From Pontiellaceae bacterium (lineage in GTDB: Bacteria; Verrucomicrobiota; Kiritimatiellia; Kiritimatiellales; Pontiellaceae): 39,747 bases of DNA. The notes under the pieces were generated by a model. It saw only the letters and a list, made by a program, of their open reading frames with translations. It did not search any database and was not told where the DNA came from. How positions within the stretch are numbered: position 1 is the stretch's first letter; every line of letters starts with the position of its first letter. The position numbers and the translations under genes were made by a program. Below, in pieces: positions 20,189 through 36,622 of the stretch. Location of the stretch: assembly GCA_016937035.1 (NCBI GenBank), contig JAFGWS010000120.1:1-39747 (forward strand). Direction: 5' to 3'.

Positions 20189-20839
20189 ATGCACGAAATT
20201 ATGACAATCGAGGAAATCGCCGCATACCTGCGCGTTTCTGAGAGAACAGTGTATGACTGGGCACAAAAAGGTGACCTTCCCGGTGGCAAACTGGGAACCA
20301 CTTGGCGCTTCAAGCGTGAAGATGTTGAAAACTGGGTGAACTCCCGGCTTTCGAGTAAAACGGCCCCAACCATTCCGGGGGTAAAAAAAGGCGGCAACGC
20401 GCTGCTGACAACGGACCGAGTGGTGATTCTGGAAGAGACCGACAAAAAAAGCGTGTTAACCACGTTGGTCGATTTGCTGGCCACATCGCCGATGGTGAAG
20501 AACCGCGATGAGCTGCTGAACGGTATTTTTGCCCGCGAGGAACTGATGAGCACCGGGATCGGTTTCGGCGTTGGTGTTCCGCATGTGCGTATTGACTCCA
20601 TTACAGATCTAGTGATGGCCGTGGCCGTATGTAAACGGCCGATAAGCGGCTATTCTTCGCTGGACGGGCAGCCGGTGCACATTGTCTGTATGCTGGCGGC
20701 ACGATCCGACCAACACACAAAATATATTCGAACTCTTTCGGCGGTAAGCGGAAGGCTGAAAGATGCGGAGACCCGCAAACGGATTATTGGTTCAGATGAT
20801 CCGTCCTTCATTTACTCTCAACTCATTACTGAGGAGTAA
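20189..20839 (+). CDS. HTH-EIIA fusion: excisionase/MerR-like DNA-binding domain plus fructose/Ntr-type PTS EIIA
   Basis: 216 residues. The N-terminus (about 3-52) is an excisionase-type winged helix, IEEIAAYLRVSERTVYDWAQ, ending in WRFKREDVENWV. The C-terminal domain (about 75-215) is a PTS EIIA of the fructose/nitrogen class with the active site STGIGFGVGVPHVR; His132 is the phosphorylated histidine in this family. In EIIANtr systems phosphorylation state controls partners such as K+ channels and kinases. Here it is fused directly to a DNA-binding domain, so a phosphorylation-controlled regulator is likely. AGAGGTGA precedes the ATG. Five bases separate it from the antiporter gene. Both domain calls are firm; the regulatory role is inference. 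Confidence 0.85.
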   Translation: MHEIMTIEEIAAYLRVSERTVYDWAQKGDLPGGKLGTTWRFKREDVENWVNSRLSSKTAPTIPGVKKGGNALLTTDRVVILEETDKKSVLTTLVDLLATSPMVKNRDELLNGIFAREELMSTGIGFGVGVPHVRIDSITDLVMAVAVCKRPISGYSSLDGQPVHIVCMLAARSDQHTKYIRTLSAVSGRLKDAETRKRIIGSDDPSFIYSQLITEE

Positions 20840-20843
20840 ATTC

Positions 20844-22505
20844 ATGGATGGCATATTGGCGATACTCGGGATCTGCGTGGCCGGCGGTGTCGTCGGTGGG
20901 TGGCTGGCTCAGCGTCTGAATATCCCGCAAGTAGTCGGTTACATTGTCGTGGGTGTACTGATCGGCGACACCGGCTTCAGCTTGCTTCATCCGGCAGATG
21001 TGGCGGAATTGACCCCGTTTAATAATTTTGCGCTGGGCCTGATCGGGTTTCTGGTCGGGGGTGAGCTGAGCGGGAGCATATTCAAAAAGTACGGGAAGCA
21101 GTTCACGGCGATCCTGATGGGCGAAGGGCTGGCGGCCTTTCTGCTTGTGGGACTCGCGGCCACCGGCATTGTCTATCTGGTCGCCCACGACTGGATAATG
21201 GCCATTTCCGCCGGTGTCGTGTTCGGGGCGATCGCCTCGGCCACCGACCCCGCTTCGACGATTGACGTGCTTTGGGAATACCGCTCTGCCGGCGTGTTGA
21301 CCACCGCCATCATTGCGATCGTCGCGCTCGACGATGCACTGGCCATGACGCTCTATGGTTTGGGCACCAGTATTGCTTCTATTCTGATGGACAGCGGAGG
21401 AAACGTTGGGCTGACCATGCTGCATACGCTGATCGAGCTGGGCGGGGCGGTTGTGCTGGGGGCCGTTGCCGGGTTTGTGCTTAACGCGATGATGCACTAT
21501 ATGCCGCAGACGGAAAAACGTCTGGGGATTTCGATTGGAATCATTCTGCTTTGTATCGGCGTAGCGGTGGCATTCAATATGGATGTTATTCTCGCCACAA
21601 TGACGGTCGGCATTGTTCTGATTAATCTGGCACCGCGCCGCAGTAAACAGCTGTTTGAGGTGATCCGCTCCTTTTCGACGCCCATTTACATCATTTTCTT
21701 TGTGCTGGTTGGCGCGCGCCTTTCGCTCAAAACCATGCCGCTGTGGATCTGGGGGCTCGTCGCGGCCTACGTGTTGATGCGCAGTCTTGGCAAATGGATC
21801 GGCTCCTACTGGGGCGGGCGCATCTCGAGGGCGGAAAAACCGGTGCAGAATTATATGGGCATGGCGCTCTTTGCCCAAGGCGGCGTGGCGGTCGGCCTCT
21901 CTATCGTGGCAAGCCAGAAACTGCCCGACATCATGGTGGTTGAAGAGATGAAGCTTGCGGACATGATTGTCTTCACGGTAACGGCTACCACGCTGATTGT
22001 TCAGCTCATTGGGCCGGCCTTTGCCAAACTGGCCATCAAGAAGGCGGGCGAAATCGGCCGCAACGTTACAGAAGAAGATGTCATGGCGGAACTCAACGTA
22101 TCGGATGTGGTTGATACCAGCATCGTTCCGCTGAAGGAGGGCACTCTGCTGGCCGACGTCGTTCGGCATTTTGCCGAACAGGATGCGCTGGTTTATCCGG
22201 TCATCGCCAACGATGAAAAGATTGTCGGAGTTCTTACATTTGAAATGCTCAAAGAGGTTCTGCTGGACCGCGACACGTGGCTTTGGCTGGTGGTGGGCGA
22301 TGTAATGCAGCCGCTTACCGAACATCTGCTGGCCAAAACGAATTTAGCCGAGGCCTTGAAGGAAATGCAGAATACGCAAGTCGAAGCGCTGCCGGTGGTT
22401 GAAAGCGCTGAAACCGGGAAGCTGATCGGCGTGCTTGATCAGCGCCTCGCCCGACGCAAGGTGAACGCCGAACTGGTTCGCCGTCAGACCACTCTCGTTG
22501 CTTAA
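20844..22505 (+). CDS. CPA-type cation/proton antiporter with C-terminal CBS pair
   Basis: 553 residues from ATG 20844, preceded by GAGGAG. About a dozen hydrophobic helices cover residues 1-390, as in the Kef/NhaP/NapA-like monovalent cation:proton antiporter families. The unwound-helix motif SATDPAST and the paired acids ALDDALA at the expected ion-binding position are visible; a DD pair is typical of electrogenic Na+/H+ exchangers. Helical loops such as QGGVAVGL are also typical. The C-terminal 150 residues form two CBS motifs, which usually bind adenosyl nucleotides. The TrkA-N nucleotide domain found in KefB/KefC is absent. It is the first of two separate cation transporters in this block. 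Cation specificity cannot be read from sequence. Confidence 0.88.
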   Translation: MDGILAILGICVAGGVVGGWLAQRLNIPQVVGYIVVGVLIGDTGFSLLHPADVAELTPFNNFALGLIGFLVGGELSGSIFKKYGKQFTAILMGEGLAAFLLVGLAATGIVYLVAHDWIMAISAGVVFGAIASATDPASTIDVLWEYRSAGVLTTAIIAIVALDDALAMTLYGLGTSIASILMDSGGNVGLTMLHTLIELGGAVVLGAVAGFVLNAMMHYMPQTEKRLGISIGIILLCIGVAVAFNMDVILATMTVGIVLINLAPRRSKQLFEVIRSFSTPIYIIFFVLVGARLSLKTMPLWIWGLVAAYVLMRSLGKWIGSYWGGRISRAEKPVQNYMGMALFAQGGVAVGLSIVASQKLPDIMVVEEMKLADMIVFTVTATTLIVQLIGPAFAKLAIKKAGEIGRNVTEEDVMAELNVSDVVDTSIVPLKEGTLLADVVRHFAEQDALVYPVIANDEKIVGVLTFEMLKEVLLDRDTWLWLVVGDVMQPLTEHLLAKTNLAEALKEMQNTQVEALPVVESAETGKLIGVLDQRLARRKVNAELVRRQTTLVA

Positions 22506-22509
22506 CCCT

Positions 22510-22827
22510 ATGAAACGAAAACGTCTATTCTCCAGATTGCTCTTGGTTTCACTCTCGATCCTTTTGATCGTGATCGAATTTTCGACGTTTTTTTCCACCT
22601 GCCATGAGTTATTGGCCCGATCGTCGGAGGAGGAGTGTTTTGAAGAAAGCATCGACCATTTGCTTTTGGGTTCGATCCGCCCGCAGATGGCTTCCGGGTG
22701 CCTGGAACCGAAATTGACCCCGCTTAGGATAGACAAAATTCCCGTTTTTGTCTCCCGGAAGGACAAGACCTATAATTTGCACTGTTCCATTTGTTCGATG
22801 GGCTGGAGGCTTGCTTTGAGAATTTGA
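22510..22827 (+). CDS. Possible small membrane protein (doubtful)
   Basis: 105 codons between the antiporter and CBS genes. A basic N-terminus and one hydrophobic stretch (about 9-31) are followed by a Cys- and charge-bearing tail with two CxxC-like spacings near the end (LHCSICSMGW). No ribosome site of note precedes the ATG at 22510, and no family is recognised. Its location inside an otherwise tightly packed block gives it some support; it could equally be a chance frame in a leader region. Confidence 0.3.
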   Translation: MKRKRLFSRLLLVSLSILLIVIEFSTFFSTCHELLARSSEEECFEESIDHLLLGSIRPQMASGCLEPKLTPLRIDKIPVFVSRKDKTYNLHCSICSMGWRLALRI

Positions 22828-22833
22828 TCGGCA

Positions 22834-22880
22834 CCCTGCACCGGGTCAATCCGGCGGGGGCGTGCGTCCCTGCACCGGGT
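22834..22880. repeat. 13-bp direct repeat upstream of CBS gene
   Basis: The word ccctgcaccgggt occurs at 22834-22846 and 22868-22880, 34 bases apart start to start, about three helical turns. It is partly self-complementary (accc...gggt). It lies 40-90 bases before the CBS gene and could be a pair of operator sites. Confidence 0.5.
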
Positions 22881-22921
22881 TGACAAATTTATTTCGGTCG
22901 ATCAATTTAAAAGGAAGAACA

Positions 22922-23389
22922 ATGAAGACAAATTTAGAAAACACGACGGTCAAAAATATTTCATATCTTATCCATTCCGCGAGCCTGCGGGCCCCGGCCA
23001 ACACGCCGCTCGAAAAGCTGGCGGACATGCTCTGTGCCGCGGATCGCTACAAGGTGTACCTCGAAGATGAAACGGGCATTCTGGTCGGAACGGTCCAGGC
23101 GCGGCAGATCGCGAAAAAGATATTGGAGTTTTCGCGCCGGAAGGAAGATACCGAAGCGATGCTTCCGGCCATTGCTTTTGCGCTGAATGCGCAAACGGGC
23201 CAAGAGTTGGCGGTTCCTGCCGTTACGGTCGAAGCCGATACGTGCCTCAAAACGGTGATTGAACTGATGAACGAGCGCCACAGCCGCGAAATCGCCGTGG
23301 TGGATGCCGACGGACGCCTGATTGGTACGCTCGATGCCAAGACCATCCTTGCCTACTATCTTCAATCCAAAGCGGAATCCAACCTGTAA
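22922..23389 (+). CDS. Stand-alone CBS-pair protein
   Basis: 155 residues from ATG 22922, with AAGGAAG six bases upstream; the frame extends back to 22862. Two CBS motifs fill the protein. The first strand-helix unit ends VYLEDETGILVGTVQARQIA (about 45-64) and the second ends IAVVDADGRLIGTLDAKTIL. CBS pairs (Bateman modules) bind AMP, ATP or similar ligands and gate partner proteins. A free-standing CBS pair in a block of CBS-bearing transporters suggests a trans-acting regulator of one of them. It lies 15 bases before the EIIA-CBS gene. Confidence 0.8.
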   Translation: MKTNLENTTVKNISYLIHSASLRAPANTPLEKLADMLCAADRYKVYLEDETGILVGTVQARQIAKKILEFSRRKEDTEAMLPAIAFALNAQTGQELAVPAVTVEADTCLKTVIELMNERHSREIAVVDADGRLIGTLDAKTILAYYLQSKAESNL

Positions 23390-23404
23390 AGCGGAGATTC
23401 ATTC

Positions 23405-24322
23405 ATGAATGTAATGAACTATACCCGCCGCGTTGAATCGTGGCAGGCCCATCTATCTGCGGGAACACAGGAAGAGGTGTTTGATCGCATCCTGAAAACG
23501 CTGTGTTCGAACCCATTTTATGCAGTAAATTCAACGCTGAGCCACGAAGGTATTCTGGAGGCGCTCATCAAACGCGAAGCGCAGCGCAGCACAGCCGTCG
23601 GCGAAGGAATTGCATTCCCGCACGCACGACTCGAAGGGCTTTCACAGGCGCTGGTCGCTGTAGTCACGCTGGATGAACCGGTGATGTTTGCCGAATCCCC
23701 GGTGAAAATCATCTGCCTGTTTCTGGTGCCGGCCTCCGATGCAGCCATCTCGCTTAAACTGATGGCTCAACTTTCCCGTATGCTGATGGACTCCACCGTG
23801 CGCGATCAAATTCTTGCGGCCAAGGACACCGAAAGCCTGCGTAATATTGTTAAGCACCTGAATCCGCGCATCGATAAAGCCATCGAGGCGCGCGACATTA
23901 TGCGCCCGCCGAGTTTCGGTATCCGTGAAGACGAGCCGGTTTTAAAATGCACCCACACGATGAGTGTGAATAATCTGCAGGCCATTGCCGTGGTTAATGC
24001 GGAGAACCATCTCGTTGGAGAAATTACCGTTGAGCGGTTGTTTAAATACGGCCTCCCGGACTTCTTTTCCAAGCTCAAGAGCGTTTCGTTCATCGCTGAA
24101 TTCGATCCCTTCGAAAAATATTTTGCCGATGAGCGCAACATCCTTGCCCGAGACATGATGGAAACCACAGCCCGCACGGTCCCGACCAACTACACCATCA
24201 TGGAAATCGTCTTTGATCTGGCGATCAAAAACTATTCCCAGCTCTATGTAACCGATGAAGACGGCCGCTGGATCGGCACCATCGACAAAGGCGTTGTGCT
24301 CGACAACGTGATCAATTACTAA
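23405..24322 (+). CDS. EIIA-CBS fusion protein
   Basis: 305 residues. The N-terminal domain (about 25-155) is a fructose/Ntr-class PTS EIIA with active site STAVGEGIAFPHAR; His73 is the predicted phosphorylation site. The C-terminal half (about 160-305) is a CBS pair; its motif ends are AVVNAENHLVGEITVE and LYVTDEDGRWIGTIDKG. The architecture joins phosphoryl input and nucleotide sensing in one protein with no DNA-binding domain. It is 18 bases upstream of the NhaD/ArsB-type transporter and is probably its regulator; that partnership is inference from position. Confidence 0.85.
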   Translation: MNVMNYTRRVESWQAHLSAGTQEEVFDRILKTLCSNPFYAVNSTLSHEGILEALIKREAQRSTAVGEGIAFPHARLEGLSQALVAVVTLDEPVMFAESPVKIICLFLVPASDAAISLKLMAQLSRMLMDSTVRDQILAAKDTESLRNIVKHLNPRIDKAIEARDIMRPPSFGIREDEPVLKCTHTMSVNNLQAIAVVNAENHLVGEITVERLFKYGLPDFFSKLKSVSFIAEFDPFEKYFADERNILARDMMETTARTVPTNYTIMEIVFDLAIKNYSQLYVTDEDGRWIGTIDKGVVLDNVINY

Positions 24323-24340
24323 TTTAGAGGTTTTCTTTCC

Positions 24341-25648
24341 ATGCACGACATGATTTTACCTATCGCTGTATTTCTTATCGTCTATTTCTTTATCGCCACG
24401 GAACTGCTCGACAAAACCATTGCATCGCTCATCGGTGCAGGGCTGATGATCGGCCTCCATTTGGTCTCCTACGAAGAGGCACTCCACGCCATCGACATGA
24501 ATGTACTGTTCCTGTTGATCGGTATGATGGTGGTTGTCAACACCATGACCGAAACCGGCGTTTTTGAGTGGCTGGCCATCAAGCTGGCGCGATTGGCCCG
24601 GGGCAACGGCCTGTTGATTGCGGTTTTCTTCATGGTTCTCACCGCCGTCCTCTCCGCCTTCCTCGACAATGTTACAACGGTGATCCTCATGGCCCCCATC
24701 ACGATCCTGCTCTGCCAGTTGCTCGAAATGCCGGCTCCTCCAATTCTCATTATGGAAGCCGTCTTTTCAAACATCGGCGGAACCTCGACCCTGGTCGGCG
24801 ACCCGCCGAACATCCTGATCGGCTCCCAGACCCACCTCTCCTTCAACGCCTTTCTACTCAATCTGGGGCCGCCGGTCCTGGTCATGATGCTCGTGTTGCT
24901 GGGGGTCATGGCGCTGATGTTTAGAAAATCGATTCGGACCACGGAAGCCACCCGGAAACGGATCGAAATGTCGCGTCCGGAAAAGGCGATCCTCGAACCG
25001 ATCGTCCTGAAAAAATCGCTCGTCGTATTCGCGCTGATCCTCGCCGGGTTTTTTGGGGGCCGTATCCTCCATATTGAACCGGGGATCATTGCGCTGGCGG
25101 GCGCTATGCTGATGGTGCTGGTCTGCAGGAAGGACATCCACCATTCGCTAGTCCATGTGGAATGGAACACCATCCTCTTCTTTTCAGGGCTCTTTATGAT
25201 GATTTCCGCGCTGGAGGCACATGGGGTGTTTGAAACGATGGGCGACCAAATCCTCCACCTCTGCGGCGGCAATCTGATGGCCACTACGCTCACGATCCTT
25301 TGGTTCAGCGCCATTGTATCGGCCATCGTGGACAACATTCCGCTCGTGATGGCCATGATCCCGCTGGTTAAGGGCATCATTCCCGTGTTCGCTCAATCCA
25401 TGGGAATCGAAGGCGAGGCCGCCATTCAGGCGCAAATTGCGGAACCGATGCTTTGGGCGCTGGCGCTCGGCGCCTGCCTGGGCGGCAACGGAACGCTGGT
25501 CGGTGCGTCGGCCAACGTGGTGATTTCGCAGATCGCCAACCGCAATAACTGCCCGATCAGCTTCATGTCGTTCACCAAATACGGTTTCCCGTTCATGCTG
25601 GCCTCGCTGGCCATTGCGCACGTGTACATCTATCTGCGGTATTTCTAG
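24341..25648 (+). CDS. NhaD/ArsB-type ion transporter (IT superfamily)
   Basis: 435 residues and about 11-13 membrane helices. The two inverted halves each contain the family's re-entrant ion-binding signatures: SAFLDNVTT with GGTSTLVGDPPNILIG in the first, and SAIVDNIPL with GGNGTLVGASANVV in the second. These define the ArsB/NhaD/SLC13 (ion transporter) superfamily. A close relationship to NhaD Na+/H+ antiporters is likely given the neighbours; arsenite or dicarboxylate transport cannot be excluded. No arsenic-resistance genes are adjacent. It is the last gene before a 102-base gap containing a stem-loop. Confidence 0.88.
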   Translation: MHDMILPIAVFLIVYFFIATELLDKTIASLIGAGLMIGLHLVSYEEALHAIDMNVLFLLIGMMVVVNTMTETGVFEWLAIKLARLARGNGLLIAVFFMVLTAVLSAFLDNVTTVILMAPITILLCQLLEMPAPPILIMEAVFSNIGGTSTLVGDPPNILIGSQTHLSFNAFLLNLGPPVLVMMLVLLGVMALMFRKSIRTTEATRKRIEMSRPEKAILEPIVLKKSLVVFALILAGFFGGRILHIEPGIIALAGAMLMVLVCRKDIHHSLVHVEWNTILFFSGLFMMISALEAHGVFETMGDQILHLCGGNLMATTLTILWFSAIVSAIVDNIPLVMAMIPLVKGIIPVFAQSMGIEGEAAIQAQIAEPMLWALALGACLGGNGTLVGASANVVISQIANRNNCPISFMSFTKYGFPFMLASLAIAHVYIYLRYF

Positions 25649-25750: not shown

Positions 25751-26434
25751 ATGAAACTATCGGTTAAGGATGTTGCGAAATTGTTGAATGTGGACGATAA
25801 GACCGTCTATGGATGGATCAAGCAGGGCGGAATTCCGGTCTACCGCATCCACGAGCACTACCACTTCAACAAGTCGGAAATCCTGGAGTGGGCCACCTCG
25901 CGGCAGATGGCCCACGCGGTGGACGCCGAAGCGAACGCGGCGGAATTCCCCAGCCTGGCCCATGCACTGAAGAATGGCGGGATCGTCTATGGCATGAAGG
26001 GCAAGGACAAGCCGACCGTGCTCCGCAACGTGGTCGATGCCATGCCGCTGTCCAATGCCGTCGACCGCAGCTTCCTCTACGAGGTGCTCCTCGCCCGCGA
26101 AAACCTGGGATCGACCGGTTTCGGCGAGGGCGTCGCCATCCCGCACGTCCGCAACCCGATTGTCCTGCACGTCGACGAACCGATCATTACCCTCTGCTTC
26201 CTGGATGCGCCGATTGATTTCGGTGCCATTGACGGCCTGCCGGTGGATATCCTGTTCACAATGGTCAGTCCGACCGTACGGATGCATCTCCACCTTTTGT
26301 CGCGGCTCGGGTTCGTATTACGGGATCCCGGATTCAAGGCGGCCCTCCAGGCCCGCCTTCCGCAAGGGGAACTGATGAACGCTCTGGTCCGCATTGAGGC
26401 GCAGATCGAATCCAAATCAAAAGCCGCGCAATAA
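25751..26434 (+). CDS. Second HTH-EIIA fusion protein
   Basis: 227 residues. The N-terminal excisionase-like winged helix (about 3-50: KDVAKLLNVDDKTVYGWIKQ) parallels the first HTH-EIIA, and the EIIA domain (about 70-220) has STGFGEGVAIPHVR with His132. The two proteins share domain order, length and active-site position but differ widely in residues, so they are old paralogues and not a recent copy. A strong AGGAGG precedes the start. It stands directly upstream of the Ehr-like complex genes, five bases before the first, and probably belongs to the same transcript. It would be the complex's dedicated regulator if the HTH works there; this is inference. Confidence 0.85.
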   Translation: MKLSVKDVAKLLNVDDKTVYGWIKQGGIPVYRIHEHYHFNKSEILEWATSRQMAHAVDAEANAAEFPSLAHALKNGGIVYGMKGKDKPTVLRNVVDAMPLSNAVDRSFLYEVLLARENLGSTGFGEGVAIPHVRNPIVLHVDEPIITLCFLDAPIDFGAIDGLPVDILFTMVSPTVRMHLHLLSRLGFVLRDPGFKAALQARLPQGELMNALVRIEAQIESKSKAAQ

Positions 26435-28461: not shown

Positions 28462-30471
28462 ATGTTCATGCACTCCGATCAATCGACAGGACTATGGATC
28501 GTGTTTTCTGCCGCGCTGGTGCTGATCGCCGGCGGCTTGCCGGCCTGCTGCCTTTCGCGGCATTCGGTACGGGCGCAGCGGGCCACTTCGGTCTTGATGG
28601 TGCTCGGCAGCCTGCTGGGCTGGTGCGGACTGGCGATGGCTTCGTTCGGCACGACCGCCGTGGAGGCCGGCCTGCCCTGGCACCTGCCGTGGGAACGGCT
28701 GTCGATCGGGCTCGATGCGATCGGCGCGGTTTTCCTGATCCCCGTCTTCACCGTTCCTATGCTCGGCTCGATCTATGGCCTGGCCTACTGGCGGCAGGGC
28801 GACCATCCCGAAAACGGGCGCGGGGTCGGCCTGTTCTATGGCCTGCTCGCCGGGTCCATGGCGCTGGTGGTGCTCGCCCGCAACGCGATCCTTTTCATCA
28901 TCGTTTGGGAACTGATGGCGCTGGCCGCCTTTTTTCTCGCCGGCGCGGAACACGAGAAGGCCGAAGTGCGCCGGGCGGGCTGGATCTATCTGGTCGCCAC
29001 GCACGCCGGAACCCTCTGCCTGCTGGCGTTGTTTGCGCTGATGCGGCAGGCGAGCGGCGGATTTGCCTTCGGCGTGTTGGACGCTGGGGCGCTCACGCCC
29101 GGCATGGTCACCCTGCTTTTCATCCTCTCCGTCGTCGGCTTCGGCTTCAAGGCCGGCCTGATGCCGCTGCATGTCTGGCTTCCCGGGGCGCACGCCAACG
29201 CGCCGAGCCACGTTTCGGCGGTCATGTCGGGCGTGATGCTGAAGATGGGCGTCTACGGAATTGTGCGCATGGTTTCGCTGCTGCCGATTTCGGAAGCGTG
29301 GAACGGCGGGGCGCTGCTGGCCGTCGGAGCCGTTACCGGAATCCTGGGTATTGCGTTTGCGATCGGGCAAAACGACATCAAGCGCCTACTGGCCTACAGC
29401 AGCATCGAGAACATCGGCATCATTTGCATGGGCATCGGGATGGCGTTGCTTGGCCGCACGCTGCACCGTGCCGACCTCGTGCTGCTGGGACTCGGCGGGG
29501 CGTTGCTGCACGTTTGGAACCACAGCCTCTTCAAATCGCTGCTCTTTCTCAATTCCGGCGCAATCATCCATGCCGGCCATTCCCGCGATATGAACCGCAT
29601 GGGCGGCCTCGCCAAGACGATGCCGCAGACCGCGTGGCTTTTCCTGGTAGGCGCCGTGGCGATCTGCGGACTGCCGCCGCTCAACGGCTTTGCCAGCGAA
29701 TGGCTGATCTATCTGGGGCTTTTCCAGGGCCCGGCAACGGGGATTGGCGCCGTGGCGCTGGCGCTCATCGGTGCGCTGGCCTTGGCCTGCTTCGTGAAGA
29801 TATACGGCATGGTGTTCCTGGGAACGGCGCGGCATGCGCTGCACGGCGAGCCGCACGATCCTTTCGCGGCGATGCGCCATCCCATGGCGCTCCTCGCGGT
29901 CGGCTGCGTGGTGCTGGGTTTCCTGCCGCATCTCGGTTTCCTGCCGCATCTCGGTTTCCCGCTGCTGCACGCGGCGGCGTCCCAGTGGCTCGGTTCCGCC
30001 GACGGCGCGCTGCCGCCGTTCGAGGAGTTCGCGCCGTCGCAGTGGATCAGCGCCTTGGCCGCAGGGCTGGTGGCGGCGGCGGTACTGGGCTTCGCGCTGC
30101 TGCGCCGACGAATCCGGCGGACGGATGCCGCCGAGGGCGCAACGTGGGGCTGCGGCTACGCGCAACCGACGCCGCGCATGCAGTATACCGGAACCTCGTT
30201 CGGCGAAGTCCTGGTCGGGCTTTTCGGCTGGGTGCTGCGACCGCGGACCAGCCGCCCCGGATTGAAGAAACTGTTTCCCGACCGCGTGGAGTTTGCCTGC
30301 GAGGTCCAGGACACGGTGCTCCACGGCCTGGTCCTTCCGGTCTTCCGGCGGGCCGCTTCCGCCATGATGAAACTGCGGCGGCTGCAGCAGGGACGTCTCG
30401 ATCTCTATTTGCTCTACCTGCTGGTGGTATTGATTGTTTTACTAAGTTGGGGCCGCCATCTGGGCCTCTGA
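28462..30471 (+). CDS. hyfB: HyfB-like antiporter subunit, copy 2
   Basis: 669 residues, paralogous to the preceding gene. Conserved groups are present: VWELMALAAFF, GFGFKAGLMPLHVWLP, IKRLLAYSSIENIG and the NHSLFKSLLFL segment. The two subunits would give the complex two large antiporter modules besides HyfF. An exact 18-bp tandem duplication (29917-29952) adds six residues (GFLPHL) in a hydrophobic stretch where copy 1 has no equivalent. The ATG at 28462 abuts the previous stop; ATG 28468 is an alternative with AAGG nine bases upstream. The duplication points to membrane-arm expansion in this lineage. Confidence 0.86.
   Translation: MFMHSDQSTGLWIVFSAALVLIAGGLPACCLSRHSVRAQRATSVLMVLGSLLGWCGLAMASFGTTAVEAGLPWHLPWERLSIGLDAIGAVFLIPVFTVPMLGSIYGLAYWRQGDHPENGRGVGLFYGLLAGSMALVVLARNAILFIIVWELMALAAFFLAGAEHEKAEVRRAGWIYLVATHAGTLCLLALFALMRQASGGFAFGVLDAGALTPGMVTLLFILSVVGFGFKAGLMPLHVWLPGAHANAPSHVSAVMSGVMLKMGVYGIVRMVSLLPISEAWNGGALLAVGAVTGILGIAFAIGQNDIKRLLAYSSIENIGIICMGIGMALLGRTLHRADLVLLGLGGALLHVWNHSLFKSLLFLNSGAIIHAGHSRDMNRMGGLAKTMPQTAWLFLVGAVAICGLPPLNGFASEWLIYLGLFQGPATGIGAVALALIGALALACFVKIYGMVFLGTARHALHGEPHDPFAAMRHPMALLAVGCVVLGFLPHLGFLPHLGFPLLHAAASQWLGSADGALPPFEEFAPSQWISALAAGLVAAAVLGFALLRRRIRRTDAAEGATWGCGYAQPTPRMQYTGTSFGEVLVGLFGWVLRPRTSRPGLKKLFPDRVEFACEVQDTVLHGLVLPVFRRAASAMMKLRRLQQGRLDLYLLYLLVVLIVLLSWGRHLGL
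29917..29952 (+). repeat. Exact 18-bp tandem duplication inside hyfB copy 2
   Basis: Two identical copies of ggtttcctgccgcatctc (29917-29934 and 29935-29952) are followed by the first six bases of a third. It keeps the frame and adds GFLPHL. Such in-frame slippage products can vary between strains. Confidence 0.9.
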
Positions 30472-30484: not shown

Positions 30485-31390
30485 ATGAATATGCTTATCC
30501 ATCTCGTGCTCATGCTGGCGATGCCGCCGCTGCTGCTGGGCGTCATCAATAAAACCAAGGCGTTGTTCGCGGGCAGGAAAGGCCCGCCGCTGCTGCAAAG
30601 CTACTACGACCTGATCAAGCTGGCCCGCAAGTCGGTCGTAATCAGCCGGACCACCACCTGGATCTTTATCGCCGCGCCGGTCGTCACGCTCACCAGTATT
30701 GCGATGGCGGGGCTCCTGGTTCCGTTCGGGCCGTTCGGGGCGCCCGTCTCCTTTACCGGCGACCTGATCCTGTTTGCCTACCTGCTGGCGGTCGGCCGCT
30801 TCTTCACCACCGCCGCCGCGCTGGATACCGGTTCGTCGTTCGAAGGCATGGGCGCCGCCCGCGAAGTCACCTTCGCCTGCCTATCGGAGCCGATCCTCTT
30901 TTTTGCCCTGCTGGTGCTCGCCCGCATGTCCGGCTCGCTGGTGCTCGGGGATTTGCTGCATGCGCCGCTGGACGCCGGAGGCCAGGGCGATATCGCGTCG
31001 CTGGTGCTGGTGGCGATCGGCCTGTTTATCCTGCTGCTGGCGGAAAACAGCCGCATCCCGGTCGACGATCCCAATACGCATCTGGAGCTGACCATGATCC
31101 ACGAAGTGATGGTGCTCGACCACAGCGGCCCCCTGCTGGGGCTCATCCTCTACGGCGCGTCGATCAAGTTGTTTGTGATCGGTGCGGTATTGCTGCACGT
31201 TCTGTTTCCGTTCCAGAGCGGGTCCGCCCTGCTCGATTGGGGCGTGTTCGTGGCGGAAATGCTGGGCGTCGCGGTCGCCGTCGGCGTGGTTGAATCGACG
31301 ATGGCCCGTCTACAGATGCGGCATGTGCCGTACCTGCTGATCGCCGCGATCCTGTTCTGTGCCTTTGGTTTTGTTCTGCTTGTGAGGTAA
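30485..31390 (+). CDS. hyfC: HyfC/NuoH-like membrane subunit
   Basis: 301 residues, with about eight helices. NuoH-type subunits join the peripheral redox arm to the antiporter subunits. Diagnostic segments are RKGPPLLQSYYDLIKL near residues 30-45, DTGSSFEGMGAAREV around 112-126, and ENSRIPVDDPNTHLELTMIHE around 187-207. All are typical of HyfC/HycD and NuoH. The acidic loop residues thought to form the quinone or ion-coupling path are kept. AAGGA precedes the ATG. It is the third gene of the complex, seven bases before hyfE. Confidence 0.92.
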   Translation: MNMLIHLVLMLAMPPLLLGVINKTKALFAGRKGPPLLQSYYDLIKLARKSVVISRTTTWIFIAAPVVTLTSIAMAGLLVPFGPFGAPVSFTGDLILFAYLLAVGRFFTTAAALDTGSSFEGMGAAREVTFACLSEPILFFALLVLARMSGSLVLGDLLHAPLDAGGQGDIASLVLVAIGLFILLLAENSRIPVDDPNTHLELTMIHEVMVLDHSGPLLGLILYGASIKLFVIGAVLLHVLFPFQSGSALLDWGVFVAEMLGVAVAVGVVESTMARLQMRHVPYLLIAAILFCAFGFVLLVR

Positions 31391-31396: not shown

Positions 31397-32038
31397 ATGA
31401 ATTCACCGTTAAACGCATTGCTGGTGGTGGTATTGGCGCTCAACCTGTTCGCGCTGGGCACCAGCCGATTGGTCACCGTCATCAAGATTGTCAGTCTGCA
31501 AGGGGTGCTGCTGGGGCTCATGCCGCTGATGATCGAGGAACACGCGGAGTGGGAATCGCTGCTCGCCATGGGCGGGACGATCCTGCTCAAGGGCGCCGTG
31601 ATTCCCCTGATGATGATGCGGGCGATCCGGGAGGTGGAGATCCGTCGCGAGATGGAGCCGCTGATCGGCTTTTTACCGTCGATGCTGTTGGGCGCACTGG
31701 CCACCGGTTTGGCGCTTTTGTTTTCCAAGTCGCTGCCCCTGGCGAGCGAACACACAGCCCCGCTGCTGGTGCCCGCTTCGCTGGCCACCATCTTTGTCGG
31801 CTTCATCCTGCTGACGACGCGCGCCAAGGCGATCACGCAGGTCATGGGCTATCTCGTGCTGGAAAACGGCATCTACATCTTCGGCCTGCTGCTGTTGGGT
31901 GTGATTCCCCTGATGGTTGAGCTCGGCGTCCTGCTCGACCTGTTTGTGGCGATCTTTATCATCTGCATCATGGTCAACCATATCAACCAGGCCTTTTCAT
32001 CGCTCGATACGCGACGACTCTCGGAATTGAAGGAATAA
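31397..32038 (+). CDS. hyfE: HyfE-like membrane subunit (NuoK-related)
   Basis: 213 residues with about six helices. HyfE is the longer, hydrogenase-4-type counterpart of NuoK. The C-terminal region, GYLVLENGIYIFGLLLLG followed by a helix ending HINQAF, matches HyfE, with Glu in LVLENG at the usual NuoK/HyfE glutamate position. The gene lies between hyfC and hyfF, its standard place in hyf-type operons, and ends four bases before hyfF. Its presence separates this complex from simple group 4 hydrogenases, which lack HyfE. Confidence 0.9.
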   Translation: MNSPLNALLVVVLALNLFALGTSRLVTVIKIVSLQGVLLGLMPLMIEEHAEWESLLAMGGTILLKGAVIPLMMMRAIREVEIRREMEPLIGFLPSMLLGALATGLALLFSKSLPLASEHTAPLLVPASLATIFVGFILLTTRAKAITQVMGYLVLENGIYIFGLLLLGVIPLMVELGVLLDLFVAIFIICIMVNHINQAFSSLDTRRLSELKE

Positions 32039-32042: not shown

Positions 32043-33476
32043 ATGGACATGGCTCTCATAATCACTCCCTTTGCGGCGGCGCTGATCGCGGCGCTGCTGC
32101 CCTCCAACCGCTGGCGTCCATGGCTCACACCGGCGGCGGGACTCGTTCATTTCATCCTGGCGCTGCGCGCGGTGTTTGGAACGGCCCCGCGTACCGGCGG
32201 GGAATGGGTAGGGTTCGATCCCGCCGGCAAGCTGGTGCTGCTGCTGGTCAGTACGCTTTTCATGGTGACCTCGATCTCGCTGATCGGCTACCTGAAGTCC
32301 CACCCGCGCCGCGCCAACCGCGTATTCGTCGCGTGCATGCTCTGCACGCTGGGCAGCATGACGATGGTGGCCTGGTCGCGGCATCTCGGCCTGATGTGGG
32401 TCGCGATTGAAGCCACCGCCCTGTGCACCGCGCCGCTGATCTACTTCAACAAGACCACGCGCTCCATCGAGGCGACGTGGAAATACCTGCTGATCGGATT
32501 CGTCGGCATTGCGCTGGCGCTGCTGGGAACCTTTTTCCTGGCCTACTCGATGCTGCACGCCGAGCTGAAAGCCTCGCTGGTCATGGACGACCTGCTCAAG
32601 GCCGCCCCGCAGCTTTCGAAGCCCTGGCTGCACGTGGCCTTTGTGCTGATGCTCGTCGGCTATGGAACCAAGATGGGCCTCGCCCCGATGCACACCTGGA
32701 AGCCGGATGCGTATGGCGCGGCGCCCGGCGCGGTCGGCACGATGCTTTCCGGAGGGGTAACCGGCTGCGCGTTCCTCTGCCTGCTGCGGATCTACCAGAT
32801 ATGCTGCGCTGCGGACGAGTTTGCCTTCGTTTCGCCGATGCTTGTCTTCATGGGGCTCTTTTCCATGGCCGTGGCCGGCGTGTTCATGGTGGGGCAGCAG
32901 GACTACAAGCGGATGCTCGCCTATTCGAGCGTCGAGCACATGGGCATTCTGGTGCTCGGACTCGGCTTCGGCCCGGCCGCCCTGTTCGGTACCCTGCTGC
33001 ATCTGTTCAGCAACGGGTTGACCAAGGGGGTCCTATTCCTTTCCGCCGCCAGTATCAACCGCGCCTACGACAGTACGCGGATCGATGTTGCGCACGGGGT
33101 GCTGCGCCGCCTGCCGGTTTCCGGCGGCATCTTCCTCGCCGGGTTTCTGGCCATCACCGGCTCCCCGCCGTTCGGCCCGTTCATCAGCGAGTTTTCGATC
33201 CTGAACGCCGGGTTTGGAACCGGACGCTTTGTGGCGGGCGGCCTGTTTCTGCTCTTTCTGCTGGTGGTGTTCATCGGCATGGGATCGACCGTCCTTCCGA
33301 TGCTCCAGGGCCGGGAGGCGGACCCCGCGGCCCCGAGCACGCACCGGGATAATTTCTGGACCGTTGCGCCGCCGTTGGTCCTGCTTGGCGCCGTGCTGAT
33401 GATCGGCCTTTGGATTCCCGTTCCGCTGAACGACCTGCTGCACAGTGCGGTTGAATTCCTGGAGGTACAGCCATGA
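32043..33476 (+). CDS. hyfF: HyfF-like antiporter subunit
   Basis: 477 residues of the NuoL/M/N family, about 14 helices. Key residues are the Glu in WVAIEATALCTAP, the Lys in GYGTKMGLAPMHTWKP, and Lys in YKRMLAYSSVEHMG, with a TKGVLFL segment near the end. HyfF is the antiporter subunit normally nearest the HyfG large subunit. Its TGA overlaps the next gene's ATG by four bases (ATGA), indicating coupled translation. This is the complex's third antiporter-type subunit. Confidence 0.9.
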   Translation: MDMALIITPFAAALIAALLPSNRWRPWLTPAAGLVHFILALRAVFGTAPRTGGEWVGFDPAGKLVLLLVSTLFMVTSISLIGYLKSHPRRANRVFVACMLCTLGSMTMVAWSRHLGLMWVAIEATALCTAPLIYFNKTTRSIEATWKYLLIGFVGIALALLGTFFLAYSMLHAELKASLVMDDLLKAAPQLSKPWLHVAFVLMLVGYGTKMGLAPMHTWKPDAYGAAPGAVGTMLSGGVTGCAFLCLLRIYQICCAADEFAFVSPMLVFMGLFSMAVAGVFMVGQQDYKRMLAYSSVEHMGILVLGLGFGPAALFGTLLHLFSNGLTKGVLFLSAASINRAYDSTRIDVAHGVLRRLPVSGGIFLAGFLAITGSPPFGPFISEFSILNAGFGTGRFVAGGLFLLFLLVVFIGMGSTVLPMLQGREADPAAPSTHRDNFWTVAPPLVLLGAVLMIGLWIPVPLNDLLHSAVEFLEVQP

Positions 33477-34963
33477 GCCCTTCTGTTGATGTGTTGAACG
33501 TGCAAGCCGGAGTGCCGGTGGCCCTGGACCGGGTCCCGCGGCACGACATGGAGGCCTTCCGCCGTATTGTCCTGCGCGAAGTCGGGGCGGGAAGCCGGGT
33601 TGCCTCCTTCTTCGGCGCGGCCACGGCCAAGCCCGGCGAGCTCGATCTGTTCATGCTGCTGGCCAACGATGCCGGCAACCGGATGGTATTTTTCTCGACG
33701 CGGATCGAGGGCGACCATTACCCCTCGCTGACGCCCGACTGCCCGCAACTGCATCTGTTCGAACGCGAGATCGCCGAGCAGTTCGGCGTGCATCCGGACG
33801 GCCACCCGTGGCTTAAGCCGGTCCGTTATCCGGCGGCGTCCGACGTGCCCGGGAGCGGGGAGTTTTACCGCGTTGAGGGCGACGAGATCCACGAGGTCGC
33901 CGTCGGCCCCGTCCATGCGGGCATCATCGAGCCGGGGCATTTCCGTTTCCAGTGCCACGGGGAGCAGGTGTTCCATCTCGAAATCGCCCTGGGCTACCAG
34001 CATCGCGGGGTTGAAAAGGCCTTTGTTGAACAGCCCGCCAAGCGGCATCTGCACTATGCCGAAACGTTGTGCGGCGACACGACCATCGGCCATGCCACCG
34101 CCTATTGCCAGCTGGTCGAGGCCCTCTCGGGATGCCACAAGACCGTGCGCTCGCAGGCCCTGCGCGGCATCGCGCTGGAGTTCGAGCGTCTCGCCAACCA
34201 TATCGGCGACATCGGGGCGATTTCCAGCGATGTGGGATTCCTGCCGACGGCGGCATACTGCGGCCGGATCCGCGGCGATTTCCTGAATATGACCGCCGTG
34301 CTGTGCGGCAGCCGTTTCGGCCATGGCATGCTCCGACCCGGCGGTGCCGGATACGATCTCGACGAAGCCGACGTGGACGACTTGCTGAAGCGGCTGGCCC
34401 TCGGCGAAAAGGATGCCGCCAGCGCCATCGAGCTGTTTTTCGACACCCCTTCCGTGCTGGCTCGACTCGACGGGATCGGCGTGCTGTCGGCCGAGGTGTG
34501 CCGCGAGCTGGGCATTGTGGGGCCGGCAGCCCGCGCCGCCGGGCTGGAGCGCGATGCCCGCCATAACCACCCCTCCGGCATCTACCGCTTCGCCCAACTC
34601 CCGCTGTCCACATGGAGTTCTGGCGATGTCTTTGGCCGCGCCTTTGTCCGGTGGCTGGAGATCCGCCATTCGATCACCTTCATCCGCGAGCAGCTGCGGT
34701 CCTTGCCGTCCGGAGAGGAGCACGCCGCGACCGGCCCCCTCAAGCCGGACCATCTCGCGGTATCGCTGATCGAAGGCTGGCGCGGCGAGCTCTGCCATGT
34801 GGCCATCACCGATGGACAGGGCGGGTTTCGTCGCTATAAGGTGACCGATCCCTCCTTCCACAACTGGGCCGGGCTGGCCCATGCCCTGCGAAATCAGGAG
34901 ATTTCCGACTTTCCGCTCTGCAACAAAAGCTTTAATCTCTCCTACTGCGGCCACGATCTATAA
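33473..34963 (+). CDS. NuoC-NuoD/HyfG-like large subunit without a complete NiFe site
   Basis: 496 residues. The first 130 form a NuoC-like domain (LHLFEREIAEQFGVHPDGHPWL); the rest is a NuoD/HyfG-like large subunit (from about 150). NiFe hydrogenases bind their metals with four cysteines in two CxxC pairs. The first motif reads ETLCGDTTIGHATAY where hydrogenases have RVCGICGFAH, so only one Cys remains. The last motif is DFPLCNKSFNLSYCGHDL in place of DPCxxC. At least two ligands are lost, so H2 chemistry is unlikely. This matches the energy-converting hydrogenase-related (Ehr) complexes described as intermediate between complex I and hydrogenases. The electron acceptor is unknown. Start ATG at 33473 by overlap. 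Confidence 0.9.
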   Translation: MSPSVDVLNVQAGVPVALDRVPRHDMEAFRRIVLREVGAGSRVASFFGAATAKPGELDLFMLLANDAGNRMVFFSTRIEGDHYPSLTPDCPQLHLFEREIAEQFGVHPDGHPWLKPVRYPAASDVPGSGEFYRVEGDEIHEVAVGPVHAGIIEPGHFRFQCHGEQVFHLEIALGYQHRGVEKAFVEQPAKRHLHYAETLCGDTTIGHATAYCQLVEALSGCHKTVRSQALRGIALEFERLANHIGDIGAISSDVGFLPTAAYCGRIRGDFLNMTAVLCGSRFGHGMLRPGGAGYDLDEADVDDLLKRLALGEKDAASAIELFFDTPSVLARLDGIGVLSAEVCRELGIVGPAARAAGLERDARHNHPSGIYRFAQLPLSTWSSGDVFGRAFVRWLEIRHSITFIREQLRSLPSGEEHAATGPLKPDHLAVSLIEGWRGELCHVAITDGQGGFRRYKVTDPSFHNWAGLAHALRNQEISDFPLCNKSFNLSYCGHDL

Positions 34964-34976
34964 AAGGAACGGAACC

Positions 34977-35780
34977 ATGATTGACATCATTAAAGCTCGA
35001 ATTTACCAGAAACATCGCACGATCCGTTTTCCCGACGGCCCCCCGCCGCCGGTGCCGAACCGCCTGCGCGGACGCCTCCAGATCAATACCGCCCTTTGCC
35101 CGGACGGATGCCGCATCTGCGCCGAGGCCTGCCCCGTGGACGCCATTTCGTTTGCGGCGGACAACCGCCCGGTGGTCGACCTGGGCCGCTGCCTCTTCTG
35201 CAACGACTGTAAGAGCGCCTGTCCGCAGCACGCCATCACCCACGCCGGCGACTACCGCCTCGCGGTCCGCAAGCGCGAAGACCTTGTCCTGGGGGACACG
35301 GATGCGCTGGCGCTGGCGGAAGAACTCGGCGCGGAAATGAAGAAGCTGCTCGGCCGCTCGCTGAAACTGCGCGAGGTCAGCGCCGGGGGGTGCAACGCCT
35401 GCGAGGCCGACGTCAACGTACTCGGCACGGTCGGCTGGGACCTGGGCCGTTTCGGCATCCAGTTTGTCGCTTCGCCCCGCCATGCCGATGGCGTGCTCAT
35501 CACGGGCCCCGTGACGCAGAACATGAAATCGGCGCTGCTCGACACCTACGCAGCGGTGCCGGCCCCGAAAATCGTTATCGCCGTGGGGACCTGCGCTATT
35601 GCCGGCGGACCGTTTATCGGCCATGCGGAAGTCGGCAACGGGGCCGATTCCATCCTGCCCGTCGATCTTTATATTCCCGGCTGCCCGCCCCATCCGCTGA
35701 CCATCCTCGATGGACTGCTGCGCCTGCTGGGCCGCGTGGACGACCATAAAACCGCAATGAGAAAGGAAACGAAGAAATGA
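34977..35780 (+). CDS. Fused ferredoxin (HyfH/NuoI-like) and small subunit (HyfI/NuoB-like)
   Basis: 267 residues from ATG 34977, with AAAAGGAACGG upstream; the open frame reaches back to 34881. Two [4Fe-4S] motifs come first: CPDGCRICAEACP (CxxxCxxCxxxCP, one residue longer than usual) around 41-53, then CLFCNDCKSACP near 71-82. A NuoB-like small subunit follows, with the N2-type cluster ligands in GGCNACEAD (a CxxC pair as in hydrogenases, not the CC of complex I), GTCAIAGG and PGCPPHP. In most relatives HyfH and HyfI are separate genes; here one reading frame holds both. The arrangement gives a three-cluster electron wire in one chain. It ends overlapping the last gene by four bases. Confidence 0.9.
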   Translation: MIDIIKARIYQKHRTIRFPDGPPPPVPNRLRGRLQINTALCPDGCRICAEACPVDAISFAADNRPVVDLGRCLFCNDCKSACPQHAITHAGDYRLAVRKREDLVLGDTDALALAEELGAEMKKLLGRSLKLREVSAGGCNACEADVNVLGTVGWDLGRFGIQFVASPRHADGVLITGPVTQNMKSALLDTYAAVPAPKIVIAVGTCAIAGGPFIGHAEVGNGADSILPVDLYIPGCPPHPLTILDGLLRLLGRVDDHKTAMRKETKK

Positions 35781-36622
35781 GTAATCGTAAAACGATCAAT
35801 CAGCTGATTCAGCTGCAGGAACTAATCGTTGCGCGCATGCAGACCAAGGCGGCGCAATCAAAGACCCCGCTGGATTCGCTGGACAAAAGCATCGCCCTGC
35901 TTGGCGCAGACTTGGAGCCGCCGGTTAAATCACACATCAACCGCCTACTGCAGAAACATCCGGAAGCCGTTGTTCCGATTGTGGACGAACACTGCACCGG
36001 CTGCGGAATCAAGTTGCCGAAGAGTCAGGTCAACGAGGTGCTCCGCGCTGACGAGCTGTATCGCTGTAGAAACTGCACCCGCTACCTCTACTATCCCTCC
36101 GAAATCGTCTCCCGCGAACGCGCCAGCCGCGTTTATGGCGAAGCACAGAAAGTCGGTATCTCCCGTTTTTCAGCTCCATCGCTGATGATTGCCCCGCTGA
36201 CCGGCAACACCCCCGAAGAAGTGCTCGGCGAGATGTGCAAACGGTTGGAAGCCGAGGAATTTGTATCCAACTCGGAACAACTGCTCAATCTGGCCCTGCA
36301 GCGTGAAGCCATTGTGAGCACGGCGGTCGATGGCGGGCTCGCATTCCCGCACGTCCGCGGCGTCGAAGGCGGCGGTCTGACGATGGCATTGGGCATCCAT
36401 AAAAAAGGGATCCGTTTCGGCGGATCGGGTCGTACGCTCACGCGCGTCTTTTTCTTTATGGTTATCCCGACCGCCACGAGCGCATTCTACCTCAAGCTGC
36501 TCTCGGGTCTCTCGCAGACCTTCCGCGATACCGATTCGCGCGATGCCCTGCTCGCTGCCGCCGACGATCCGGAGGCGCTTTGGAAGGCGCTCATCAAGTC
36601 CACTCGCAAAACCATTAAATAA
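35777..36622 (+). CDS. Zinc-ribbon-EIIA fusion protein
   Basis: 281 residues. A helical, Gln-rich N-terminus (about 1-60) leads to a C4 zinc ribbon (Cys73, Cys76, Cys97, Cys100; CTGC...CRNC). A linker is followed by a PTS EIIA domain (about 135-275) with STAVDGGLAFPHVR, His192 being the predicted phosphorylation site. The glycine usual just after STA is replaced by VDGG, but the histidine is kept. The zinc-ribbon part resembles C4 zinc-ribbon proteins of the DUF164 kind; I am unsure of the exact family. It overlaps the complex's last subunit by four bases (ATGA), so it is made in step with the complex and is probably a regulator or accessory of it. Confidence 0.85.
   Translation: MSNRKTINQLIQLQELIVARMQTKAAQSKTPLDSLDKSIALLGADLEPPVKSHINRLLQKHPEAVVPIVDEHCTGCGIKLPKSQVNEVLRADELYRCRNCTRYLYYPSEIVSRERASRVYGEAQKVGISRFSAPSLMIAPLTGNTPEEVLGEMCKRLEAEEFVSNSEQLLNLALQREAIVSTAVDGGLAFPHVRGVEGGGLTMALGIHKKGIRFGGSGRTLTRVFFFMVIPTATSAFYLKLLSGLSQTFRDTDSRDALLAAADDPEALWKALIKSTRKTIK

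Follow-up and report, generated by a model that had tools for sequence, protein, structure and literature searches.

The window, the whole 39,747-nucleotide stretch of DNA that was analysed, comes from a Pontiellaceae genome and carries a gene block at positions 20189–36622, all on the plus strand. The first-pass annotation had described 14 co-directional genes here, and Pfam and NCBIfam domain searches identified all 14 in the same order and on the same strand; a small gene at 22510–22827 had been overlooked. The features are as follows.

20143–20166, plus strand: promoter/operator-like motif TGCGGTTTGNNGTAGTTTNNCGCA, upstream of HTH-EIIA 1 and overlapping a TTGCAT-16-TAGTTT promoter-like pair
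20189–20839, plus strand: HTH_17-EIIA regulator 1, 216 aa (PF12728 62.5 bits, PF00359 94.5 bits; GVGVPH active-site stretch)
20844–22505, plus strand: CPA-type cation/proton antiporter, 553 aa, carrying CBS domains at its C-terminus (PF00999 117.5 bits, CBS 46.8 bits)
22510–22827, plus strand: small conserved protein, 105 aa (hydrophobic N-terminus, acidic middle, GWxMPLRI-like C-terminus)
22922–23389, plus strand: CBS-domain protein, 155 aa (PF00571 34.6 bits)
23405–24322, plus strand: EIIA-CBS protein, 305 aa (PF00359 94.2 bits, CBS 45.9 bits)
24341–25648, plus strand: ion transporter of the ArsB/CitMHS/NhaD superfamily, 435 aa (PF03600 296.8 bits)
25751–26434, plus strand: HTH_17-EIIA regulator 2, Ehr-paired type, 227 aa (PF12728 52.4 bits, PF00359 84.6 bits)
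26440–28461, plus strand: HyfB-like antiporter-type subunit 1 (PF00361; PRK06521 581.5 bits, cut-off 667)
28462–30471, plus strand: HyfB-like antiporter-type subunit 2, tandem paralogue (PF00361; PRK06521 581.1 bits, cut-off 667)
30485–31390, plus strand: HyfC/NuoH-like subunit (PF00146 116.3 bits)
31397–32038, plus strand: HyfE-like membrane subunit (PRK11492 76.7 bits, cut-off 136; no Pfam match)
32043–33476, plus strand: HyfF-like antiporter-type subunit (PF00361; PRK06458 280.1 bits, under cut-off)
33473–34963, plus strand: HyfG-like large subunit, resembling NuoCD and lacking the NiFe cysteine ligand set (PF00346, PF00329)
34977–35780, plus strand: HyfH-HyfI fusion of a two-cluster ferredoxin domain and a NuoB-like small subunit (PF01058, Fer4)
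35777–36622, plus strand: Zn-ribbon-EIIA protein, 281 aa (PF02591, Zn_ribbon_9, 39.3 bits; PF00359 73.2 bits)
36653–36681, plus strand: intrinsic terminator-like site (13-bp stem, 9 G-C pairs, T tract)

HTH-EIIA 1 starts with the ATG at 20189, the longest ORF for the same gene beginning at 20015, and all 15 block genes (the 14 named genes and the small 105-aa gene) have ATG starts. The tight junctions originally reported were borne out, as genes were 0–18 bases apart or overlapped by 4 bases, except for spacings of 94 bases 5′ of the CBS gene and 102 bases 5′ of HTH-EIIA 2. Both wide gaps coincide with borders between the modules described below; since the Ehr/Zn-ribbon-EIIA border is a 4-base overlap, the gaps mark only two of the three module borders. 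As had also been noted, a terminator-like site closes the block, and its 13-pair stem was the longest among the 27 sites that its scan detected, where shuffled sequences averaged 19.2.

The motif at 20143–20166 had 0 mismatches and was the sole match in the window at ≤3 mismatches (0/100 shuffles). It lay directly 5′ of a pair of HTH-EIIA and CPA antiporter genes in 24 of 30 fetched loci (24 genomes), and this pair was directly downstream at all 17 loci with 0–1 mismatch. The antiporter scored above the cut-off for the Pfam family Na_H_Exchanger and below that for the CPA2 model TIGR00932 (44.8 bits against 238.3). In the three relatives examined, a CPA antiporter and EIIA formed a one-chain fusion (3/3). 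At 8 of the 13 distinct loci inspected, the same position held a counterpart of the 105-aa protein (102–107 aa), with identities of 0.45/0.51/0.37 by codon position. EIIA-CBS, for which 511 homologues were found at E ≤ 0.001, adjoined the transporter in 25 of 43 related genomes with varied similarity, and a gene of the block type was found in 18 of the 43. In these 18 genomes, the place of HTH-EIIA 2 and Ehr was occupied by SulP in 11 and Ehr in 3, was cut by a contig end in 2, and held neither in 2. The earlier label of NhaD/ArsB-type for the transporter was correct at the superfamily level; strict NhaD identity was rejected because every NCBIfam score fell under its cut-off (NhaD models, 50.6 against 577.1 bits and 46.5 against 80; MamN, the top match, 176.6 against 500).

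The genes recurred separately in other genomes as four modules: HTH-EIIA with the CPA-CBS antiporter; CBS with EIIA-CBS and the ArsB/NhaD-type transporter; HTH-EIIA with Ehr; and Zn-ribbon-EIIA. The block is thus a merger of separately recurring modules rather than one ancient unit. Outside the window, Pontiella sulfatireligans alone had the complete block on a single contig; two further genomes (G003 and G013) may carry it in full, contig ends cutting both. A phylum-wide sample of 80 Ehr loci showed, in the stretches fetched, neither a CPA antiporter nor an NhaD-type transporter, and likewise no Zn-ribbon-EIIA (0/80). The latter was also rejected as a marker of the block, with block genes at 8 of 80 of its loci and no match above 135 bits at the other 72; its H192 was invariant (23/23 aligned), and its structure model was poor (pLDDT 64.4). 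The idea of the entire 16-kb block as a widely conserved operon was rejected on the rarity of the full set, SulP in the Ehr slot (11/18) and the 0/80 Ehr loci. The last of these also speaks against a single system, and the dedicated system that had been suggested, with its putative phosphorylation and nucleotide control, is only partly supported. The gene-neighborhood check proposed with that suggestion split accordingly: the pairs were firm, and the full EIIA, transporter and complex set was rarely found together. What did find support was the systematic pairing of EIIA with ion transporters and Ehr, along with the retained His, the near-universal EI and HPr (see below) and the CPA-EIIA fusions.

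We consider it somewhat probable that the block represents merged ion-transport modules, mostly with an EIIA of their own, that are fed by a PTS largely without PF02378, so that the PEP/energy state would tune pumping. The strongest competing explanation, which we regard as rather unlikely, is stacking without joint control, each module being real and their union in the window a local accident. Modules standing alone in other genomes, the absence of the other modules from the 80 phylum-wide Ehr loci, the position of both wide gaps and the SulP replacements all fit such stacking, as does a relative with a 97%-identical HyfG fragment that lacks the middle module (window segment 22567–25507 missing, on one MAG contig). 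Against it, P. sulfatireligans keeps the same block despite a HyfG only 76–79% identical to that of the window, indicating that the union has been kept, and a second composite in a different gene order was found at one locus (L137, labelled L112 in the repeat scan), comprising HTH-EIIA, EIIA-CBS, the transporter, HyfB, C, E, F and the start of G. The mostly tight junctions, and the lack before the window's HTH-EIIA 2 of a repeat found at some lone copies, also argue against stacking.

A firm new result is that the pair of HTH-EIIA and Ehr is conserved within the HyfG clade of the window. An EIIA gene was near HyfG in 35 of 80 fetched HyfG neighborhoods. Of the 45 decidable rows in the window's clade (55 rows in all), 37 had HTH-EIIA with Ehr, against 0 of the 21 decidable rows in a sister clade (27 rows); the contrast has a Fisher p of 5e-11, computed on rows that are not phylogenetically independent and with the label of L127 assigned manually from L145. 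The chance expectation, based on 274 EIIA matches in 126.6 Mb, was 0.35% per 3.2-kb same-strand slot. Eight rows of the EIIA clade had no EIIA despite an Ehr with upstream sequence. The active-site His was kept in all 38 HTH-EIIA proteins of the Ehr-linked alignment, and an AlphaFold2 model of HTH-EIIA 2 (pLDDT 89.2) had PtsN (3urr) as its top PDB match. A plasmid search with this protein returned 217 records, none spanning 80% of the query. Of 40 upstream regions (180 bases each), 13 had TGTCC-N5-TGTCC direct repeats with a 10-bp period (shuffle mean 0.03), one of them belonging to the HTH-EIIA of the second composite. The repeats also turned up in 2 of the 24 control regions (360 bases each) from the EIIA-less clade, and none preceded the window's HTH-EIIA 2. 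Some of these matches contain a −35-like TTGACA.

These data bear on a second alternative, that the EIIA domains act by protein contact only, as PtsN does, and that HTH-EIIA does not in fact control Ehr transcription. EIIANtr affects the YcgO antiporter by contact (PMC11808508), and TrkA and KdpD are named as further EIIANtr partners (PMC13104625). The HTH part is, however, conserved in the alignment of 38, scoring above the Pfam HTH_17 cut-off in the window, L191 and L291 and below it in L216 (23.2 against 27 bits; its EIIA score, 24.7, is also under the cut-off of 27) and L254 (24.5). The conserved motif ahead of HTH-EIIA 1 and the helical-turn-spaced repeats ahead of some HTH-EIIA 2 homologues point the same way, and we consider action by contact alone improbable.

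The seven complex I/hydrogenase-4-like subunits annotated earlier were all recovered, with the refinement that the last is a HyfH-HyfI fusion starting near 34977. The nearest solved structures were FHL subunit 3 for HyfB-like subunit 1 (7z0s_C, E 1.3e-73), and MbhJ (6cfw) and FHL subunit 7 (7z0s) for the fusion. In HyfG, the L1 site has CGDT opposite CGIC of FHL subunit 5, and the L2 site has NLSYCG against DPCYSC, its last residues being a gap-free extension by eye; no CxxC occurred at L1 or L2 among the commonest 14 variants per group (for L2, nearly all rows). A group 4 NiFe hydrogenase was rejected because both Ni-Fe-binding CxxC motifs are missing in the HyfG variants inspected. The complex has the antiporter-like membrane subunits of an Ehr (two HyfB, one HyfF), and the NADH module NuoEFG of respiratory complex I was not found within the block. 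The TM5 Glu, TM7 Lys and TM12 Lys were retained in 96–97 of 97 HyfB rows and 119–121 of 121 HyfF rows, and the TM8 Lys in 75 of 97 HyfB rows, being absent among the commonest HyfF residues; we take these Glu and Lys to be ion-channel residues. On this view the complex would be related to FHL and complex I and would translocate ions, without being a hydrogenase.

The PF00359 EIIA domain is present in four block proteins, and related genomes have 2–13 EIIA matches each. Searches of 43 genomes of the order detected EI in 42 and HPr in 42; the search for EI came up empty in G009, the nearest relative encountered, a MAG that may be incomplete. PF02378, the only permease family scanned, occurred in only 5 of the 43 genomes, on which a sugar PTS was rejected; the six genomes that showed signs of this Ehr (G003, G004, G009, G013, G023 and G043) all lacked the family. 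Given the missing NiFe cysteine set and the distribution of PF02378, we regard a standard hydrogenase-4 or formate hydrogenlyase operon beside sugar-PTS genes as very improbable, even though subunits of FHL and of membrane-bound hydrogenase were the closest solved structures.

In the favored reading of merged modules tuned by the PTS, phosphate from PEP would pass through EI and HPr to the active-site His of each EIIA. HTH-EIIA 1 may bind its own promoter at 20143–20166, as the motif suggests, and set expression of the antiporter operon. The conserved pairing suggests that HTH-EIIA 2 would be a dedicated transcriptional regulator of Ehr; its relatives that head an operon may act at the TGTCC repeats, and the window's copy, lacking this repeat, sits inside a block that would be led by HTH-EIIA 1. 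EIIA-CBS and Zn-ribbon-EIIA, which have no recognised DNA-binding domain, most likely contact the transporters, by analogy with unphosphorylated PtsN on YcgO, and the CBS domains may add adenylate sensing. The net outcome would be pumping of the predicted substrate ions tuned by the cell's PEP/energy state. Whether this extends to a phylum-wide bioenergetic phosphorelay, in which a PF02378-less PTS and pump-paired EIIAs read PEP and set antiporters, SulP and Ehr, is a more tentative matter, and we lean slightly against it.

E. coli PtsN (EIIANtr) inhibits the K+/H+ antiporter YcgO (PMC11808508), and the block resembles that system in the EIIA fold of PtsN and in an EIIANtr-type protein that would govern a CPA-family antiporter and K+ handling. 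Unlike PtsN, the EIIA domains here are fused to HTH, CBS, Zn-ribbon or, in related genomes, the antiporter itself, and are encoded beside their presumed targets, one type tracking a redox-linked pump. Alpha-proteobacterial kdp operons hold a second ptsN copy and so likewise have an EIIA gene within an ion-transport operon; there ptsN goes with a K+ uptake system, and the passages of that article on these operons mention no Ehr (PMC13104625). BldC is a MerR-related regulator with a small winged HTH that sits head to tail on direct repeats, each subunit covering 9 bp (PMC5859096); the candidate repeats ahead of HTH-EIIA have a 10-bp period. Unlike HTH-EIIA, BldC, with 68 residues, has no EIIA domain. 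Energy-converting hydrogenase-related (Ehr) complexes such as that of Riflemargulisbacteria share FHL/complex I-like subunits without NiFe ligands and with antiporter-like subunits, but their proposed partner is formate dehydrogenase (PMC6349859), whereas the conserved neighbor here is an HTH-EIIA regulator. We found no literature joining EIIA with Ehr among CC-licensed PMC articles, a search that leaves subscription papers outside and does not prove absence; as far as it goes, Ehr complexes would gain their first described regulator in HTH-EIIA. The role of Ehr is described as an open question (PMC6349859), and a conserved regulator offers a handle on it, as the signal of HTH-EIIA would tell when the pump is needed. 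If true, a redox-linked ion pump would join K+ transport under PTS regulation, in bacteria that mostly lack PF02378. Lentisphaerae sequences cluster with some Ehr (PMC6349859), and by name, the best 120 of 8000 scored HyfG relatives included Latescibacteria, Sumerlaeota, Planctomycetota and a deltaproteobacterium.

All 15 genes at 20189–36622, a block encoding EIIA, CBS and transporter proteins and an energy-converting hydrogenase-related (Ehr) complex, run in the same direction and start with ATG; the 14 named in the first-pass annotation were borne out, and the fifteenth had been overlooked. The genes are joined by 4-base overlaps or gaps of 0–18 bases, with wider gaps only ahead of the CBS gene (94 bases) and of the second HTH-EIIA gene (HTH-EIIA 2; 102 bases), and a terminator-like site is present downstream of the block at 36653. 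The window has a G+C content of 55%, and the closest named relatives of its encoded proteins are from Pontiellaceae or Kiritimatiellales. The overlooked gene follows that of the CPA antiporter and precedes the CBS gene:

22510–22827, + strand, small conserved protein of 105 aa, unannotated

Its product has a hydrophobic start, an acidic middle and a GWxMPLRI-like end, and relatives of 102–107 aa occupied the same position in 8 of the 13 distinct loci examined. Identity among the gene and its relatives (nine sequences) was 0.45, 0.51 and 0.37 by codon position, a pattern resembling that of coding sequence.

The closest solved structures for HyfG, HyfB1 and HyfHI (a HyfH–HyfI fusion) were those of formate hydrogenlyase and the Pyrococcus membrane-bound hydrogenase. 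HyfG lacks the NiFe ligand set, with L1 changed from CGIC to CGDT in the window and L2 reading NLSYCG; L1 of its relatives was mostly AGDT or SGDT (judged from the 14 most frequent variants in each group). Channel residues of antiporter-like subunits, a glutamate in TM5 and lysines in TM7 and TM12, were kept in 96–97 of 97 HyfB rows and 119–121 of 121 HyfF rows; a TM8 lysine was found in 75 of the 97 HyfB rows and was not among the commonest HyfF residues. The small subunit retained its four cluster cysteines in all seven rows passing the length filter. The complex is thus an Ehr, as had been proposed. Ehr complexes are described as being without the residues coordinating Ni and Fe and as having partners that call for experimental testing (PMC6349859). 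One genome (L254) has two Ehr gene sets: HyfF-G-HI borders the stretch, and the set bearing HTH-EIIA lies some 4 kb beyond it.

Of 387 genomes sampled from the phylum, 114 had HyfG relatives at E ≤ 1e-60. An EIIA gene was found in 35 of 80 HyfG neighbourhoods taken in rank order from the top, a range in which three places were passed over and below which none was taken. When L126, L127, L128 and L144 were added (n = 84), EIIA preceded the first HyfB in 32 and came after it in 6, was not seen in 37, some of which stop near HyfB (the HTH-EIIA of L127 is in the adjoining L145), and 9 had no HyfB. The order holds 274 EIIA matches in 126.6 Mb, and therefore an EIIA would fall by chance in a 3.2-kb same-strand slot in about 0.35% of cases. 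In a HyfG tree of 86 rows (quick method, midpoint root, long branches present; SH-aLRT 87 and 98), the 55-row group of the window comprised 37 rows with EIIA, 8 without and 10 undecidable, and a 27-row group comprised 0, 21 and 6, respectively; outside both stood three rows (L253, L254), two of them with EIIA, and one further row without it. With undecidable rows excluded, the EIIA label required seven changes on this tree, where kinship of the rows eases clustering. By alignment, the EIIA part of these Ehr-linked proteins comes after an HTH, and all 38 keep the active-site histidine; in a Pfam scan of four relatives, L191 and L291 passed both cut-offs, L254 fell below that for HTH_17 and L216 below both. 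In six loci from the EIIA-free clade, the upstream genes visible there were unlike EIIA. L181 and L184 have no EIIA and carry, upstream of HyfB, small membrane proteins that by eye presumably resemble ATP synthase accessory proteins. The pairing of HTH-EIIA with Ehr, seen in a single large Ehr clade within the phylum, is a robust new element.

To this belongs a wider pattern: here, ion pumps come together with EIIA proteins. The 43 genomes of the order have 2–13 EIIA matches each, among which a 570–600-aa frame is frequent; all three examined (L286, L287 and L288) had an antiporter (PF00999) fused to EIIA (PF00359) in one chain. HPr and EI (PF05524) were each found in 42 of the 43 genomes, missing from G027 and G009, respectively, and the permease family PF02378 was found in 5. 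The predicted structure of HTH-EIIA 2 matched PtsN best and, more weakly, the cytosolic domains of animal anion exchangers. EI and HPr would probably phosphorylate the EIIA domains according to PEP, and the EIIA domains would probably act by two routes, on the operons' own promoters by way of the HTH domains and on transporters by contact. A tested precedent for contact is unphosphorylated PtsN, which binds and inhibits the CPA1 antiporter YcgO (PMC11808508), a second ptsN inside kdp operons offers a genomic precedent (PMC13104625), and the MerR-like HTH of BldC, bound to direct repeats, provides one for HTH binding (PMC5859096).

Upstream of the first HTH-EIIA gene (HTH-EIIA 1) lies TGCGGTTTGNNGTAGTTTNNCGCA, which overlaps TTGCAT-16-TAGTTT. 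It occurred with ≤3 mismatches in 31 of the 43 genomes, as a single copy in 25 of those; its reversed control occurred in 10 of 43, so not all 3-mismatch matches are meaningful. HTH-EIIA and CPA genes were directly downstream in 24 of 30 fetched loci (24 genomes), including all 17 with 0–1 mismatch, and were absent from that position in 6. This element resembles a promoter dedicated to the pair, perhaps with an operator. A second motif, close to TGCGATTTGGCGTATTTTTCCGCA and related to but distinct from TGCGGTTTGNNGTAGTTTNNCGCA, occurred in four genomes (L283, L285, G036 and G044); the loci L282, L283 and L285 showed no HTH-EIIA or CPA next to it. In the 180-base regions upstream of the 40 HTH-EIIA genes most like HTH-EIIA 2, not all beside Ehr, the direct repeat TGTC[CA]-N5-TGTC[CA] was present in 13 (shuffle mean 0.03, largest 2; other spacings, 0–2), with some matches including a TTGACA-like box. 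As controls, regions ahead of HyfB had the repeat in 2 of 24 from the EIIA-free clade (360 bases versus 180; Fisher p 0.025) and in 0 of 8 from EIIA-clade rows without EIIA. No such repeat precedes HTH-EIIA 2 in the window, L126 or L128, which would fit a module that has passed to control by the HTH-EIIA 1 promoter.

The Zn-ribbon-EIIA alignment was scanned against 84,980 species genomes, and the best 80 of 297 relatives were retained. Eight of these 80 loci had other block genes; none above 135 bits was found in the remaining 72, which include a second paralogue from genomes also having the block copy. In six of the eight, the transporter and Zn-ribbon-EIIA genes were separated by that of a SulP/STAS anion transporter (identified by family models in L001 and L026 and by similarity elsewhere), accompanied in L028 by a further ORF. 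Block-type EIIA-CBS (>190 bits) was present in 18 of the 43 genomes: the slot occupied in the window by HTH-EIIA and Ehr was filled by SulP in 11 (L001, L002, L003, L006, L026, L028, L130, L132, L133, L134 and L136), Ehr was at the locus in three (G003, G004 and G023), the locus was cut off in two (G013 and G039), and neither SulP nor Ehr was there in two (G027 and G034). HyfG exceeded 400 bits in 5 of 43 genomes, with an additional contig-end fragment in G023. P. sulfatireligans (G004; L126 and L129) has the block in the same gene order as the window, and in G003 the contig with the transporter breaks off in an HTH-EIIA fragment after that gene, and HyfC to Zn-ribbon-EIIA are on another contig. 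G009 (L128) has a 97% identical HyfG fragment yet lacks the equivalent of 22567–25507 (2.9 kb), where transporter gene fragments remain, on one MAG contig in which misassembly is possible. G023 (L137) is a composite, all in one direction, of HTH-EIIA, EIIA-CBS, transporter, one HyfB, C, E, F and the start of G. Thus the modules can occur apart, yet there are two gene orders that join the transporter module to Ehr. The proposal that the block forms one dedicated control system for membrane energetics thus holds in part: the HTH-EIIA–Ehr pair and EIIA accompanying ion pumps favour it, but the modules separate, and CPA, the NhaD-type transporter and Zn-ribbon-EIIA occurred in 0 of the 80 Ehr loci across the phylum.

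Two further loci, L211 and L215, have a SulP-like ORF immediately ahead of the first HyfB, which may point to a SulP–Ehr link.
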